33,761 nucleotides of DNA, from contig CALHGQ010000357.1 in assembly GCA_938030175.1 (NCBI GenBank), forward strand, positions 1-33,761, in the 5' to 3' direction. A program made the position numbers and the translations under genes. The DNA is from an uncultured bacterium (lineage in GTDB: Bacteria; Planctomycetota; UBA1135; GCA-002686595). How positions within the stretch are numbered: position 1 is the stretch's first letter; each line of letters starts with the position of its first letter. The notes under the pieces are model-generated. The model saw only the letters and a list, made by a program, of their open reading frames with translations. It was not told the origin of the DNA and searched no databases. This document shows positions 23,191 through 32,312 of this stretch, piece after piece.

Positions 23191-25383
23191 CTAGCGCGAA
23201 CGCTTTTTCTTAGGACGGCGCCGCAGCGCCTTCTCGTGGACCCCGTGACAGTCGACGCACTCCCGGGAGAGGGGCCTGTACCGGATGAGGTCGGTTTCTT
23301 CTTCGGGCTTGTGGCAGGCCGCGCAGGCGACCTCCTCGTGGGCCTCGTCAAGGACGAAGCGCGACTCGAGATCGTGGTCGAAGCTCAGGACGCTGAACGC
23401 CTCGGCGCTCTCGTGGCACTTCACGCAGGCCTTCGCGCGCGGCTTGTCGAACTGGCCTTGGTGGGGCGACTCGTGGCAGCTTGCGCAGCCCGTTCCTGCG
23501 GCGGGCATCCACGTTCTGCCGATGGCGTCCGGGCGGCGGAGCGGCTCGTGGCAGCTAGAGCAACCGGTCTCCGCGTGGGCGTCCGCCAGGGGCCAGCCGG
23601 TCCAGCGCCCGTGGTTGAAGCCGTGGGGCTGGTCGCGGAACGAAGCTGTAGAGTGACATCGCGCGCAGTCGCTTCGCCCGTCGATGGTCTCTGGATGGCG
23701 TCGTTTGTCGAAGCGCCCTTCGTGGACGTCGTCGTGGCAGGAAGCGCAGCCGGTGACCGAGCCGTAGATGTCTTCGATCGCGCCGAACAAGCGGCCATTG
23801 GCGTCTGGAGTATCTGTGGGCACGTGGCACGAGGTGCACTCGGCGGTGCCGTGGGCGCCGGTCAGCGCATAGCCGGTCCAGAACTCGTGGTCGAACGACT
23901 GCTTCCCGTCCTGGAGATGCGCCGTGCCGAAGGAAGTGGTGTCGTGGCAGCGCGCGCAGTCGCCGTGGCTGACGGCGAGCGGCCCGCTCTCTTTGGCAGG
24001 GTGCGTGCCCAGGACCTCCTCGAAGAAGCCGCGGTGCGCGTCGGAGTGGCAGGACTCGCACGTGTGGTCGAGTCCGTGGAAACGCGGCGCGCCGCCCAAC
24101 TCCTCGGCTGGAGCGTGACAAGAGTCGCAGTCAGCTTCGACGTGGGCACCATCCAGCGGCAGGTCGGTGGATCCATGGGCTTCGGTGCCGAACGTGTGCG
24201 GCGCAAAGTGCGTCCGCGAGTGACACACGAGGCAGCCTTGTTCGTCGACGGAACCGCCGAGGAACTCAACGAGGCTCGATGTGTGCTCCGCCGGGACGGA
24301 CGGGAAGTTCAGCCCGGCGAACTGGCCCTGGTGCACGTCGTCGTGACATGCGGCACAGGTGTCGGCGTCACGGCCTGGATAGCGCTCGTCGTACTCCAGC
24401 TCGGGGGCGTGACAGTCGGCGCATTGCTGGACGTCGTGGGGAGCCGCAAGGGGGAAACCCGACGCGCCGTGTAGGGCGGCGGAGAGCTCGATTGCATCCT
24501 CGGCGAACGATGTGTGCTCGGCCAGGTGGCAGTTCGTGCAGAGCTGGTTGGCGGGCGTGCCGGTCAGGGTACGTGCGTTGGCTACGCCGCTGATGGCTGC
24601 GGCGCCTAGGACGAACGACTCGGAGTGGGGGAGGCTGTGGCAGCTCGCGCAGTCCCGGTACGCCGGGCGCTTCGCCGCAGGGCCGCGCAGGACGGCCAGG
24701 GAGTGGTTGGAGTCTTCCCCGTGGCACTCAGCGCACGAGAGGCCCGCGTGTCCACCCACAAGGTCGAGGAATCCGCTGTGCTTGATGTAGTGCTGGCTGT
24801 CGAAGCCGTGCTGGTGATGGCAGTCGACGCAGGAGGTTCGGTACTGCCCCTCGTGCACGTCCTCATGGCAGCTCGCGCAGTCTTGGGCCAGGCCGATGAA
24901 GCGGTGCGCTCCTTCCGGAACGAGCTTCACGTCGCTGTGCTCATGGCACTGATTGCAGTCGAGCTCCAGGTGCGCACCGTTCATGGCAAAGCCGATGAGC
25001 TGATGCTCGAACTCCCTCGGGTCCTGCACCCCTGCGCGCGCGAAGCTGAGGTCGTTGACGGCCTGGAAGTTCGCGCCGTGGTGGTCGGAGTGGCATCCTG
25101 CGCAGTTGTCGGCGACGGTGGAGTCGAGGATGCCGTGCAGCCCAATGCCCTGGTCTAAGTGGGTTTGGATGATGCTGTGACACTCCAGGCAAGAGCTGGT
25201 CATCGAAGAGCTCCATCCGCCGTGGCAGTCGGAGCAGCTGTTCTCCAGGCTCAGGCCTTCGACGCGGCCATGGGCGGCCAGTAGCTCACCTGGGGCCGTC
25301 TGACCGAAGTCGACGACCGCCGCAGAGATGACGGCGGCGAAGGAAACCACCGCGATGAGCGTCTTGGGCGAGGGCATGCCCAT
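23191..25383 (-). CDS. 23-heme periplasmic c-type cytochrome
   Basis: The product is 730 aa with a signal peptide or N-terminal anchor (TLIAVVSFAAVISAAVV). I count 23 CXXCH heme sites between residues 50 and 713, one per 29 residues. Five sites show a recurring block, CASCHEDVHEGQ or close variants, near residues 169, 343, 443, 546 and 633, so the protein grew by duplication of a cytochrome-c3-like unit. The C-terminus is unusually basic (RRRPKKKRSR). Its ATG shares one base with the TGA stop of the upstream fusion gene, with GGAGG six nt before, so the two are translationally coupled. Such a long heme chain can act as a periplasmic wire between the inner-membrane donor upstream and the barrel downstream. 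Confidence 0.93.
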   Translation of the reverse strand: MGMPSPKTLIAVVSFAAVISAAVVDFGQTAPGELLAAHGRVEGLSLENSCSDCHGGWSSSMTSSCLECHSIIQTHLDQGIGLHGILDSTVADNCAGCHSDHHGANFQAVNDLSFARAGVQDPREFEHQLIGFAMNGAHLELDCNQCHEHSDVKLVPEGAHRFIGLAQDCASCHEDVHEGQYRTSCVDCHHQHGFDSQHYIKHSGFLDLVGGHAGLSCAECHGEDSNHSLAVLRGPAAKRPAYRDCASCHSLPHSESFVLGAAAISGVANARTLTGTPANQLCTNCHLAEHTSFAEDAIELSAALHGASGFPLAAPHDVQQCADCHAPELEYDERYPGRDADTCAACHDDVHQGQFAGLNFPSVPAEHTSSLVEFLGGSVDEQGCLVCHSRTHFAPHTFGTEAHGSTDLPLDGAHVEADCDSCHAPAEELGGAPRFHGLDHTCESCHSDAHRGFFEEVLGTHPAKESGPLAVSHGDCARCHDTTSFGTAHLQDGKQSFDHEFWTGYALTGAHGTAECTSCHVPTDTPDANGRLFGAIEDIYGSVTGCASCHDDVHEGRFDKRRHPETIDGRSDCARCHSTASFRDQPHGFNHGRWTGWPLADAHAETGCSSCHEPLRRPDAIGRTWMPAAGTGCASCHESPHQGQFDKPRAKACVKCHESAEAFSVLSFDHDLESRFVLDEAHEEVACAACHKPEEETDLIRYRPLSRECVDCHGVHEKALRRRPKKKRSR

Positions 25384-27617
25384 CAGTGACCTCCCCCGAA
25401 GAGCTGTCCATAGAAGACGGCTTGGCCGATGTGTAGCGCGGCGAGCACGACCATAAGGGCAGCGACCCAGCGGTGGGCGTAGCGCCAGGTCGCGAGGATC
25501 GCGCGGATGTCCTCGAGGTGAGCGGCGCTGCGTGCCGTGCGGTAGCCGCGCTCTGTGAGCTGCAGGACGCCGTCGATCTGGCCTTGACTGAGGCTTTGCT
25601 GCTGGCCGCTTTCCTGAAGCTCAGCCAGGGCTCCTTTAAGGCGGCGGTGCCCCGTCAGCATCGCACCGACGCGACCGAGGAACGACGACTCCCACTGGCC
25701 CGCGCGCACCAAGGTGCCAAGCCGCTCCCGCGCCTCCGCCCCGAAGGACTGGTGCTGGTTGTCCCACGCGCCGGACAGAGCGGAGAGCTGGGACTTGACC
25801 TCGTCGATCTCAAGCTCACGGCCATTCGCAGCGCGGGGAACCCAGGCGTATAGGTAACGACCGATCGAGCCGGTGACGAGGAGCGCGAGGAGGGACCAGA
25901 GCGCGTGGCTGCCCACCGTGTTGCGTGGCGCCATGGCCGCGTGGAGCAGAGCAAGGAGGAACGCGAGCACGCCGGTGGCGACGTGGCTCGTCATCCAGCC
26001 CTTGAGGGAGCCGATGGGGAAGCCCGCGAACTTGGCGGCGAACTTGGGGGAACGCCGGATGAGGTAGGCGAGGTTGACCGCCACGAGGGAGATCGCGCCG
26101 ATGCCCAGCCACAGCCCCAGGCCGCGGCCCGGGCGCAGGAGGTCGTGCTTAATGTGGGCCGGCCGCTCCATGCGCGGAAGGCTGTAGTAGTCGCGGTGGT
26201 AGAGGGCGAAGGCGAGGGCGATGAGCGTCAGGACGAGCGCCGCCCCCAGCGCGCGTACGAGGCCGGTGCCTTCCTCTTCGATGGCCTTGGACGCGGCGCG
26301 CAGGCTCGGGTCGAAGGACACGCCGGCGGCTTCCAAAACATCGACGGGCGCGAGCCCGCCGACCATGATGAAGAGCTCGTCGTTGGGGACGGCGAGCTGT
26401 CCGCCGGCGGCGTTCTGGATGGTGACCTGGTCGGAGTCGACGGAGACGGCATTCGTGTCGAAGTACGCGGCGATCCGACCCGCTGCGATCGCTTCTTGGA
26501 TGCGCCGCTCGTTGGAGGCCTTGATGCGGACGAAGGCTGAGCGGCGATAGGAAATCGAGACAGTGGTGCCTTCCTGTTCCGAGAGTGCGATGGCCGCTTC
26601 CACTGCGGAGTCTCCACCGCCCACCACCATGACGCGGCGGCCGGCGTACGAGCGCGCGTCGAGCAGGCTGTAGGCGACCTTCGGAAGTTCTTCGCCGGGG
26701 ATACCGAGCTTGCGAGGGGCGCCCCGTCGACCGAGCGCGAGGCACACGTTGGCGGCGCGGATGTTCTGGGTACCGGTGTGAACCACGAACCCGCCGCCGT
26801 CGACCTGGGTCAGGCGTTCGAAGGTTTCGCCGCCTTGGATGGGCAGCTCTTGCTCTTGGGCAATGCCCTGCCAGAGGTCGACGAGCTCTTCCTTCGAGTA
26901 CGACGTCTGGCGGAACTTGCCGTAGAGGGGGATCTCGATGGGCTGGGTCGTGACGAGCTTGCGGCGGGGGTAACGCGCGACGGTACCACCGAGCTGATCC
27001 TCTTGGTCGATGGTGAGGAAGCTCAAGCCTTGACGCTTGGCCTCCAAGGACGCGGCGAGGCCAGCGGGGCCTGCGCCGACGATGCAGAGATCTAGCACCT
27101 CGGTGTCCTGGCCCGCCCTGCCGTTCATGCGCGTCGCGACCTCGGACGCCACGGCGACCCCGTGGTCCACGGCGGTCTTGATGAGTGCGTGGGCGGTGAC
27201 TTCTCCGGCGAGGAAGAGGCCCGGTGTTCCGACGGCTTCCAGGTGCGGCTCGATAGCGGGGATGTCCCGACGCTCCGAGGTGTCTCCCATGGTGATGGTG
27301 ATCGCATCCACCGGGCACTCGCGCTCGCAGGCGCCAGCGCCGATGCAGCGTGCGCCGCGCACGACCGCGGCCTGTCCATGAACGAGTTCGAGGACGCCTT
27401 CTTCGGGGCATGCGGCGACGCACGTGCCGCAGCCGAGGCAGCGCGACAGGTCCACGACCGGATGCTGGAGCTCTGCCTTCGCGGCTCCTTGCTCCACGGC
27501 CGCTTCGCGCCGTTCCAACGTCCGGGCCATGGCGCGGATCTCGCCGCGCCGATGCAGCGCCACGAGCACGGCCAAGGCCAAGAGGCCTGCCATCAGTCCG
27601 AGTACGGCCCAGCTCAC
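25383..27617 (-). CDS. fusion: ferredoxin, FAD/NAD(P) oxidoreductase and diheme-b-like membrane domain
   Basis: The product is 744 aa. The GTG start at 27615-27617 is preferred because GGAGG lies six nt upstream and because it begins the first membrane helix (residues 4-21); the frame is open upstream to 27818. Two Fe-S motifs follow: C60, C63, C66, C70, then C91, C97, C101 with Ala94 where a cysteine would be. A thioredoxin-reductase-like flavoprotein has GAGPAG (181-186) for FAD and GGGDSA (333-338) for NAD(P)H. It has no CxxC disulfide, so it does not reduce thioredoxin. The C-terminal half has about five helices. Two carry histidine pairs spaced 14 apart (H545/H559 and H715/H729), as in diheme cytochromes b. 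The likely role is NAD(P)H-driven electron entry into the membrane and the downstream cytochrome. It is the first gene of the operon. Confidence 0.9.
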   Translation of the reverse strand: MSWAVLGLMAGLLALAVLVALHRRGEIRAMARTLERREAAVEQGAAKAELQHPVVDLSRCLGCGTCVAACPEEGVLELVHGQAAVVRGARCIGAGACERECPVDAITITMGDTSERRDIPAIEPHLEAVGTPGLFLAGEVTAHALIKTAVDHGVAVASEVATRMNGRAGQDTEVLDLCIVGAGPAGLAASLEAKRQGLSFLTIDQEDQLGGTVARYPRRKLVTTQPIEIPLYGKFRQTSYSKEELVDLWQGIAQEQELPIQGGETFERLTQVDGGGFVVHTGTQNIRAANVCLALGRRGAPRKLGIPGEELPKVAYSLLDARSYAGRRVMVVGGGDSAVEAAIALSEQEGTTVSISYRRSAFVRIKASNERRIQEAIAAGRIAAYFDTNAVSVDSDQVTIQNAAGGQLAVPNDELFIMVGGLAPVDVLEAAGVSFDPSLRAASKAIEEEGTGLVRALGAALVLTLIALAFALYHRDYYSLPRMERPAHIKHDLLRPGRGLGLWLGIGAISLVAVNLAYLIRRSPKFAAKFAGFPIGSLKGWMTSHVATGVLAFLLALLHAAMAPRNTVGSHALWSLLALLVTGSIGRYLYAWVPRAANGRELEIDEVKSQLSALSGAWDNQHQSFGAEARERLGTLVRAGQWESSFLGRVGAMLTGHRRLKGALAELQESGQQQSLSQGQIDGVLQLTERGYRTARSAAHLEDIRAILATWRYAHRWVAALMVVLAALHIGQAVFYGQLFGGGH

Positions 27618-27793
27618 CGCGGCCCTCCTGCACGGAGGGGCATGGGGGGGCTGCAAGCGGCCCTTTGGGGGGCCTTCGGCCAGGACTGCAGCTGGGGCGC
27701 TCGTTGCGGGGGGAGCATCGAAATGAGATCGACACGAATGACCCAGGGCTTGAGGACGACGGTCGGCTAGGCTTCCTCTCCCGCGAGCTTCCC
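27618..27793. promoter_or_regulatory. divergent promoter region of the electron-transfer operon
   Basis: This is 176 bp between the GTG start of the fusion gene and the ATG of the small membrane protein gene. By position it must hold the promoters of both. I could not identify a reliable -35/-10 or sigma-54 element. The ribosome-binding site GGAGG of the leftward gene lies at its edge. Confidence 0.4.
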
Positions 27794-28348
27794 ATGGCCG
27801 ATTCCAACTTCCTTTCATCTGAGGCTTCCAGCCCCATCGAAAGCGGCGCCAGCCTCCTGACCGCCCTGGTCCGGCTCGTGCTCTTGGCCGCGGTCGTGAC
27901 CGCCCCCGTATTCCTGTTCGGCGAGGGCTTCGAGCCCAAGTACATCGGCCGCGTGGCAGCGTCGAACGGTCTCTGTGCCCTGCTTTGCCTGGGCCTGCTC
28001 AGCCTCATCAGGCGGGGCCGAGTTCAGCTCGCAGGGGCCCTGTTCGTTTACGGGCTGCTCGCGCTGGTGGGCGTGCTGGCTTGGGTCAACGGCGAGCCGG
28101 TCCACGTCAACGTGGTGAACTTCACGCTTGTCGTGGTGCTAGCTAGCGCGGTGGCTCGACCCCGTGACCTGTTGATCGTCGGTGCCCTTGCGGCCCTCGA
28201 AATGGTCGCGATCGCCTGGGATCGTCCCCCGGGCGCCGCGACGGGCAAAGACCTGGCGGAGCTCCGCTTCGAAGCCATCGTGCAGTTCCTGCCGACGTTT
28301 GGCGTCGTCGTTGGTGTGCTGTGGCTGATGCGGCGGGATCGCGCGTAG
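27794..28348 (+). CDS. small polytopic membrane protein
   Basis: The product is 184 aa from the ATG at 27794. Five or six membrane helices are visible, near residues 20-43, 54-73, 77-98, 106-121, 124-142 and 160-180. The spacing and short loops resemble the membrane sensor modules that begin some histidine kinases and GGDEF proteins, but no output domain follows; the protein ends with RRDRA. I do not recognise a family. It is divergent from the electron-transfer operon, and no functional link is demonstrated. The open frame continues upstream to 27350, but that stretch overlaps the fusion gene antisense and is rich in Arg and Pro, so it is not used. Confidence 0.75.
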   Translation: MADSNFLSSEASSPIESGASLLTALVRLVLLAAVVTAPVFLFGEGFEPKYIGRVAASNGLCALLCLGLLSLIRRGRVQLAGALFVYGLLALVGVLAWVNGEPVHVNVVNFTLVVVLASAVARPRDLLIVGALAALEMVAIAWDRPPGAATGKDLAELRFEAIVQFLPTFGVVVGVLWLMRRDRA

Positions 28349-30012: not shown

Positions 30013-31080
30013 TTACTTGGCGCGCTTCGCCGAGGCTTCGACCGCCCTCGCAGACGAGTTGCGATAGAGCCAGACGTTTCCACGGCGGACGTATTCTCCA
30101 CTGACTTTGTTGCTCTCGTAGTCTCCCACCAAGAGGTCGAGATCGCCGTCACCATCGTAGTCTCCGACAGCCACTTGGGTTCGAGTGCCGATGCCCGCGG
30201 ACTTCATCGCTGAGGACGGAATCAATACGGTCTCTGTCTCGAAGTATGGGGCGCCGCTTTCACCCGTGTTGAGTAGCCAGGTGACGCCTCCCTTCTTCCC
30301 GCCAGATACTAGGTCTATGAGTCCGTCTCCATTCCAGTCCACGAGGACAGGCATTGCGTAGCCAGCGCTGAAGCCCGCCTCACCACCGGGTCCTTCGAGC
30401 GGCGTCAGCTGCGTCGCGAACACCGGCTTGGTCTTGGAGCCCTCGTTGATTCGAACGTGCAGGCCGCCGGAGTCGGTCCCGATGAGCAAGTCGAGGTCGC
30501 CATCCTCGTCAATGTCAAATGGGACCGCCGAGTAGAGGCGCTGGCCAGGACCGTCGCCCTGCAGGTGGGCCTTCTCGTCGAAGTCCCAGTAGCGACCTGT
30601 GTGCATCAGGCCACCGTCCTTGTCACGAATCATCTCCGGCTGCTGAAAGCCATCGGCCTGACCCATGGCGACGTAGGGGACGCCTGCGAAAGTGCCAGAG
30701 ACAATGTCAGTGTGACCGTCGGCGTTGAGATCCGCAAACTGCGGATGAATGCCGACGCATCACCAGTTGTGGAACTTGAGGTCGGTGGGCTTGTCACCCA
30801 CGGCTTGGACCTTGCCCTGCGTCTTGTACGCAGGCTCGCTGTCCGTGCCTACGTTGCGGAACACCTCGATGGTGCCGCGGAACGAACTGACGAGCAGATC
30901 CGTCTTGCCGTCCCCGTCAAAGTCGCGAAGGTGAGGTCCTGCGTGCCCAATGTCCTTGCCGACGTCGATGATGACACCGTCGGCGGTCAAGGCGACCGGC
31001 GCTTCGAACGTCGCCCCGCCGGGAGGCCCGTTCACGGTCGGGCTAAGAAGACAGGCGAGCAGGCTTGTGGCGTAGATCAT
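30013..31080 (-). CDS. secreted FG-GAP/VCBS repeat protein, predicted selenoprotein (in-frame TGA at codon 107)
   Basis: Read through one TGA (30760-30762), the product is 355 aa. The start at 31078-31080 has a purine-rich AAGGAAGG site just upstream and gives a short signal-like segment (MIYATSLLACLLSPTVNG). Five FG-GAP/VCBS calcium-loop repeats are seen: DFDGDGKTDLLV, DLNADGHTDIVS, DIDEDGDLDLLIG, DWNGDGLIDLVSG and DYDGDGDLDLLVG. The first lies before the TGA and four after, all in the same frame, so the halves belong to one beta-propeller-like protein. The TGA lies in FHNW-U-CVGIHPQF, directly before a Cys, as in a selenenylsulfide or vicinal redox pair. A two-part stem-loop follows at the position expected for a SECIS. 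Alternatives are a nonsense mutation or a sequencing error. Partner and substrate are unknown. Confidence 0.85.
30717..30759 (-). promoter_or_regulatory. predicted bacterial SECIS element of the FG-GAP gene
   Basis: On the minus strand, right after the TGA, CGTCGGC (30757-30751) pairs perfectly with GCCGACG (30723-30717). After a small internal loop, ATCCGC (30746-30741) pairs perfectly with GCGGAT (30735-30730). The apical loop AGTTT occupies nt 20-24 after the TGA. A lower stem, an upper stem and a loop with G-U at this distance match what is known of bacterial SECIS elements bound by SelB. Confidence 0.75.
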
Positions 31081-31301
31081 TTCCTTCCTTGGGTTGTATC
31101 GATGATGCGAGTCGCCGGCTCCAGGAGTGAGCCGCAGCTCCAGCCTACGACAGGGCGGCAAAAACGCGGAGGCTCCCGCCGGAGCCTTAGCCCCAGGCCG
31201 GGACCAAAATGGGGGGATTTGTACGCTCTACGTGGGCTGGGGCCGGGGATCGGCGATTCGTCGCGTTCTGGACGCGAGGTTGCAGGTAGATTCGCGGCGT
31301 T
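31081..31301. promoter_or_regulatory. shared divergent promoter region of the two predicted selenoprotein genes
   Basis: This 221-bp stretch separates the two outward-facing genes and should hold both promoters, which allows joint control. It contains a 7-bp hairpin AGGCTCC/GGAGCCT with a 4-nt loop at 31170-31187. Read leftward, the hairpin is followed closely by TTTTT, so it could act as a terminator or attenuator in the leader of the FG-GAP gene. No clear promoter boxes were identified. Confidence 0.4.
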
Positions 31302-32312
31302 ATGATCAAACCACTCATCTCGCTCCGGCTCGCGCTGGGGCTCTTTACGGGTATCGCCGCCAGTGCGCTCCTGTCGGACAGCGCGTTGGCGCAGGTCGGC
31401 GTCGGCGCCAAGCCTGCCTACTCGTTCCGTGAATCGCCGACGAACTCCATGGGGATCACGAGCCTTGAGGACTTGAAGGGCAAGCCCGTCCTGATCGAGT
31501 TCTGGGGCACGCGCTGAGGCCCTTGTGTTTCGGGGGCGGTGCCCTCGGCTATCAAGACGGCAGAAGAGTACGGTGACGACCTGGTCGTCCTTTTTGTGGA
31601 AGTCCAAGGAGCGAGTTCAACGCAAGCCGAGCGTTTCGCCTACGACCGCAAGTGGATGGGAACGAACGCGATGTGGACGTCCGAGCGCGTGTTTAGCACG
31701 GGCGCCAAGGGCATCCCGAACTTCGCGCTCCTGTCCGCGGACGGCGAGCTGATCATGAAGGGCCACCCGGGCTCCATGCACAGCAAGATCATGGATGCGA
31801 TCGATAACGAGATCGCGAGCGCCAAGAAGGGACCCAAGGATGCACCCAAGGCGCTCAAGAGTGCGTACAAGGCCTTCGCGAAGGCGGACTACACAAAGGC
31901 AATCGCTGCCGCTGAGAAGGTGGCTAGCTCTGAGGGGGACGACGCAGCCGCGGGCGCAGAGCTCGCCAAGAGATTCAAGAAAGACGTCGACGCCAAGTTC
32001 GCACGGGTCGACTGGATGTTGAAGAACGCCTACTTGCTCGAGGCGGAGGAGCTTTTTGAGTCACTCGAAAAGAGCGTCAAAGGCCTAGCGAGTTTCGAAG
32101 AACGCGTCACCACTCTCGGGGAAACCTTCGACTCTGCCGAGATGAAGGCTGACCTGAAGCTGGCCAAGTCCTATGCCAAGATCGAGGGCAAGCTTGCCGA
32201 GGATGGCCTCGACGAGAAGGTGCTCAAGAAGCTCGACAAGTTCATCAAGAAGAACTCGGATGCGCGCGTAGTCGCGCGCGGTAAAGCGCTCCTGAAGATG
32301 GCCTCCGAGTAG
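31302..32312 (+). CDS. thioredoxin-like (TlpA/ResA type) protein, predicted selenoprotein with UGPC active site
   Basis: Read through one TGA (31515-31517), the product is 336 aa with a signal peptide ending near ALAQ (residue 31). The thioredoxin fold begins with VGAKPAYSF and LEDLKGKPVLIEFWGT. Next comes R-U72-G-P-C75, so the TGA falls exactly on the nucleophilic Cys of the CGPC motif. The expected cis-Pro is P139 in GIPNF. Residues about 170-336 are Lys/Glu/Ala-rich helices not found in simple thioredoxins. The frame is the same before and after the TGA, and both halves have normal coding character. Without readthrough the product would be a 71-aa fragment lacking the active site. A SECIS-like hairpin follows. 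Likely role: periplasmic thiol/selenol redox reactions. The ribosome-binding site is weak. Confidence 0.9.
31531..31547 (+). promoter_or_regulatory. predicted bacterial SECIS element of the thioredoxin-like gene
   Basis: CGGGGGC (31531-31537) pairs with GCCCTCG (31541-31547), seven pairs including one G-U, closed by a GGT loop. The loop covers nt 21-23 after the TGA. The short distance, the G-rich stem and the G-G-U apex agree with the bacterial SECIS pattern (in E. coli fdhF the GGU apex is about 19-21 nt after the TGA). Confidence 0.75.

Follow-up and report, generated by a model that had tools for sequence, protein, structure and literature searches.

The window analysed here, a contig of 33,761 nucleotides from an uncultured member of the Planctomycetota, contains a reading frame for an FG-GAP repeat protein that is interrupted by a TGA codon, and the question that this locus raises is whether the codon is a stop, an error, or a site of selenocysteine (Sec, U) insertion. 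The frame comprises 355 codons on the minus strand (31080-30013), and its translation includes a single TGA, at codon 107 (30762-30760, minus strand), followed by TGC (C108) in the context HNW-U-C-VGIHPQF, which confirms the W-TGA-C-V-G arrangement reported in a first-pass annotation of this DNA. Gene prediction that treats every TGA as a stop would reveal this gene only as truncated pieces. The ATG is preceded by a ribosome-binding-like sequence, AAGGAAGGAA (31081..31090, minus strand), and the protein begins with a hydrophobic stretch, MIYATSLLACLLSPTVNG (31018..31080, minus strand), which is likely to be an export signal and has similar counterparts at the N-termini of the relatives.

Within the taxonomic family to which the window belongs, a six-frame search covering 81 genomes yielded dozens of homologues with 35–50% identity; nearly all long matches contain one TGA, and in all 30 loci that were read, it occupies the same place in the U-C motif. 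Overall, a single TGA at this column recurs among relatives of 35–50% identity from dozens of genera, which goes far beyond what chance would produce. The genome that carries the window (G000) has three additional TGA-containing FG-GAP paralogues (C660, C275, and C103), for a total of four. Within the phylum, 133 of 392 genomes match the family profile at E <= 1e-20, and by our own count from the table, the TGA form is present in 93 of these 133, roughly one in four of all Planctomycetota genomes in the sample; a separate scan found U forms in both Planctomycetota and Verrucomicrobiota. When all loci are aligned, the U column holds an in-frame TGA in 168 rows, which include overlapping loci, are not all independent, and correspond to 139 distinct downstream sequences, and Cys-Cys is found in ten rows (L113, L122, L189-L194, L195, and L142 from Kordiimonas). 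The planctomycete relatives with Cys-Cys that the first-pass annotation had mentioned do exist, and its proposal of a new selenoprotein family gains support from both kinds of rows. The residue after U is Cys in 166 of the 168 rows; in the U forms L119 and L202, Asp or Arg follows Sec instead. An unrelated residue at the column of residue 107 appears only in a few divergent paralogues, the clearest of which has lost the pair entirely; among such paralogues, Ser-Ser replaces the pair in L035, and L036 is unaligned there. In a tree computed with the motif masked, the Cys forms sit at several separate places, with four exchanges between U and C, at least three of which are forced by well-supported branches.

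Immediately downstream of the TGA lies a predicted bacterial SECIS (30717..30757, minus strand), in which a 7-bp lower stem joins nt 3-9 after the TGA with nt 37-43 (30757-30751 with 30723-30717), and a 6-bp upper stem joins nt 14-19 with nt 25-30 (30730..30746, minus strand) below the apical loop AGTTT at nt 20-24 (30740-30736). Both stems and the loop are as originally described, and the folding energy of nt 1-43 in RNAfold is -21.1 kcal/mol. The bSECIS rules call for a loop of 3-9 nt with a G in the first two positions, located 16-37 nt after the UGA, an upper stem of 4-16 bp, and a minimum free energy of at most -7.5 (PMC13188914); the window hairpin, whose AGTTT loop begins at nt 20 and whose upper stem has 6 bp, lies within all these bounds, also in its folding energy. 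An Rfam search of the window gave no match.

The upper stem is conserved across the family, more so than the lower stem. In 136 distinct sequences from relatives, pairs one to six are formed in 68, 95, 100, 99, 98, and 99%, respectively, that is, in 93% of all cells (136 sequences by six pairs). The pair between nt 18 and nt 26 is A-T in 101 of the 136 sequences and G-C in 28, compensating changes of the kind that the first-pass annotation had suggested looking for, and its state switches about nine times on the tree. This pair involves the third position of codon +6 and the second position of codon +9, such that GTG (Val) accompanies CCA, and GCG (Ala) accompanies CCG. The choice of Val or Ala at codon +9 follows from the need to keep the pair, a clear example of coding sequence shaped by an RNA signal. 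All six pairs are formed in 65% of the sequences vs 52% after within-column synonymous shuffles (200 shuffles, maximum 55%) and vs 6% for codons sampled at random from pooled usage; the latter is the strongest contrast for the SECIS, from a control that disregards phylogeny. Codon choice is skewed as well, with T at the end of codon +5 in 129 of 136 sequences, compared to 14% where these amino acids occur in the rest of the genes, and CCA accounting for 77 of 108 Pro codons at position +6, compared to 6% of Pro codons elsewhere. A formal independent-pairs test fell short of significance because too few well-supported pairs are available, with nearly all of these in agreement and none opposed. 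Among the ten Cys forms, none has all six upper-stem pairs. These comparisons show the upper stem to be under selection and to be maintained by coordinated base changes in the U forms, not in the Cys forms.

The genome carrying the window encodes SelA, SelB (335.9 bits, cut-off 242), a tRNA-Sec with the anticodon TCA (UCA), and SelD (G000:C195:5252-6199), which itself has an in-frame TGA, as is known for some SelD. Across the phylum, SelA (E < 1e-60) was detected in 90 of the 93 U-form genomes vs 152 of the 299 others (p 9e-19); the three U-form genomes without such a SelA match are 77-82% complete. True SelA is absent from nine of the ten Cys-form genomes, namely, the six of genus g101, where SelA matches are weak only (~1e-8 to 1e-10), Kordiimonas, and the genomes with L113 and L122. 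The genome G263 retains SelA yet has a Cys form (L195, G263:C2:83188-84108).

These observations bear on the reading of the frame as a pseudogene, a product of sequencing error, a gene with an ordinary stop, or one in which TGA is reassigned to another amino acid. The assembly is fragmented, with 728 contigs, and one isolated instance might be erroneous, but the same codon recurs in about 100 genomes, together with Cys replacements and a hairpin under selection. The complete Sec machinery in the genome argues against these readings, and several long frames in the window, judged as frames by length only, end in TGA, which speaks against reassignment. We regard this entire set of explanations as having a negligible chance of being correct, and the reading of the TGA as Sec is, by comparative standards, close to certain.

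The window protein is identified as an FG-GAP beta-propeller, on the strength of Pfam matches above the cut-off (FG-GAP_3, E 1.9e-27; FG-GAP, 6.2e-17) and the modelled fold. It consists of five FG-GAP repeats, with the motif N-W-U-C-V-G between repeats 1 and 2. AlphaFold2 modelling with the window protein and 28 relatives gave a pLDDT of 91.1 and a pTM of 0.88, and its structural matches are to propellers (a KICSTOR subunit, CRTAC1, BBS proteins, and phytase), with TM-scores of ~0.4, too low to fix the blade count. In the relatives, a hydrophobic N-terminal stretch precedes the propeller, which is followed in most cases by a helical segment and then by the closing strand G-x-V-W-x-Y; in the window protein, the closing strand is kept as GNVWLY and the helical insert is absent. 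The hydrophobic N-termini, judged by eye, together with periplasmic-type domains fused to some relatives, suggest that proteins of this family are exported. The repeat type, the DxDGDG loops, and the propeller fold are common to FG-GAP_3/FG-GAP proteins (PF13517, PF01839) and CRTAC1/ITFG2-like propellers, but ordinary FG-GAP members lack a Sec-Cys or Cys-Cys pair at the site.

None of the 119 prokaryotic selenoprotein families in Table 1 of a 2026 inventory is an FG-GAP, VCBS, or propeller entry (PMC13188914), in agreement with the first-pass statement that FG-GAP/VCBS proteins are outside the classical bacterial selenoproteins, and no NCBIfam model matches above the cut-off. In a literature search of incomplete coverage, selenocysteine and VCBS, or bacterial selenoproteins and beta-propellers, were not found together, and the texts naming both 'selenoprotein' and 'FG-GAP' deal with unrelated subjects. 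Thus, the FG-GAP selenoprotein family is probably new. It resembles the listed families in the encoding of Sec by UGA, a bSECIS directly downstream, Cys homologues, and the vicinal CU/UC pair that is often present, but NW-U-C-[IV]-G on a domain of the FG-GAP, VCBS, or beta-propeller type is absent from their motifs. Most characterised selenoproteins have a thioredoxin-like fold (PMC13188914), whereas this family sets Sec on a propeller, apparently an exported one.

The relatives offer a lead to the function of the Sec-Cys pair. In some, the frame also encodes a further domain, with the pattern YQACxxxxC-PP, which is recognised as DsbD_N (Pfam PF11412) above the cut-off in L043, L053, L225, L206, L054, L059, and L126 and is located before, between, or after the propellers; a profile of the fused domain retrieves the solved structures of DsbD-alpha (3pfu, 1l6p, 1jpe). 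Separate genes in L192 (23.9 bits) and L142 (19.5) score slightly under the DsbD_N cut-off of 25. In six genomes of genus g101, a DsbD_N gene comes next after the Cys form, and in Kordiimonas, the Cys-form gene overlaps at its end with such a gene, after which comes a complete DsbD (DsbD_N, DsbD_TM, and thioredoxin domains). DsbD_N was found in 20 of 98 family loci (>= 6 kb) vs 0 of 43 ordinary FG-GAP loci (p 5e-4, with loci not all independent). The PF11412 domain was not found in the window protein, and most relatives also have no DsbD_N nearby; in the window's own genome, DsbD_N occurs at two other places. DsbD-alpha hands electrons to periplasmic partners (PMC7347389) and is the likely electron donor here. 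Given that DsbD_N is fused to or adjacent to both Sec and Cys forms, we infer that the Sec-Cys pair acts as a redox couple, with its electrons coming from the DsbD route, and judging from these gene arrangements, a DsbD-coupled redox role is likely. As separate observations, the Cys form L122 has a similar DsbD_N-like tail, judged by eye, and in a verrucomicrobial locus (L126, 6046-7875), a U form is fused to a peptidoglycan-binding domain and DsbD_N.

The first-pass annotation had offered a redox or metal site as alternatives for the pair, and the DsbD_N associations favour the former. A site for soft metals or metalloids (Cu, Hg, Ag, As) on the selenoprotein, serving surface scavenging or detoxification, now carries less weight and seems rather unlikely to us. 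Several known selenoproteins with CU/UC pairs (SaoL, SaoC, HgcA) do act on mercury or organometals (PMC13188914, Table 1), the DsbD_N profile has a weak hit (E 0.15) to 6c29, the solved structure of a putative metal resistance protein, and in Kordiimonas, FecR and TonB-receptor genes precede the Cys form; the recurrent partner, however, is DsbD_N, whose own Cys pair, YQxC-x4-5-C-PP, is a thiol-exchange site, and no heavy-metal resistance gene was found to recur in the neighbourhoods of the family loci. The pair of the selenoprotein might also be structural or regulatory, with a selenenylsulfide fixing a propeller loop on an adhesion or binding scaffold. FG-GAP propellers usually serve as binding scaffolds, and the fold stays in the few divergent paralogues that have lost the pair. 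Costly Sec and a SECIS kept across ~100 genomes would be unexpected for a structural bond, however, and the DsbD_N fusions suggest turnover; we rate this role as improbable.

The explanation that we favour, and consider quite probable as a whole, is that of a genuine selenoprotein, an exported propeller with a Sec-Cys redox couple fed by the DsbD route or by a TlpA-like partner. The hairpin, which starts two bases downstream of the UGA at codon 107, would direct SelB and tRNA-Sec to decode this codon as Sec, and the product would be an exported five-repeat FG-GAP beta-propeller with the vicinal Sec-Cys pair on the segment linking repeats 1 and 2. This pair would most likely alternate, outside the cytoplasm, between the selenol/thiol and selenenylsulfide states; it would be reduced by a DsbD-alpha-type domain, fused or next door in a number of relatives, or by a TlpA-like partner, and the electrons would pass from the pair to a substrate held on the propeller. 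We further lean towards the view that this is the first beta-propeller selenoprotein family, widespread in Planctomycetota and present in Verrucomicrobiota, with the pair as the terminal acceptor of the DsbD route, forming a non-thioredoxin branch of extracytoplasmic thiol redox. The DsbD_N fusions open the function to test, with regard to both the reductant of the pair and the target reduced by it.

The window contains a possible redox partner of the FG-GAP selenoprotein, a divergent gene for a TlpA-like thioredoxin selenoprotein (31302..32312, plus strand) with U72 in the motif WGTR-U-GPC (TGA 31515-31517), whose relatives in the same family of genomes mostly have one TGA too. TlpA/thioredoxin-like UxxC selenoproteins resemble the FG-GAP family in having Sec, a redox character, and likely export, but have the thioredoxin fold and are an already-known kind of selenoprotein. 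Partnership with the divergent TlpA-like gene was rejected as a shared feature of the family, a homologue being located near only one other family locus (L101). A conserved operon around the family was likewise rejected: only tandem copies and genus-level neighbours recur. With no conserved neighbourhood in general, the function is not readable from operons. In Kordiimonas (L142, 1871-9755), the gene row consists of FecR, a TonB receptor with an STN domain, the FG-GAP Cys form, the DsbD_N gene, and the complete DsbD. Elsewhere in the window (25383-27818, minus strand), there is a gene for a large pyridine-nucleotide oxidoreductase of the Fe-S/FAD type, possibly ending in a cytochrome-b-like membrane part.
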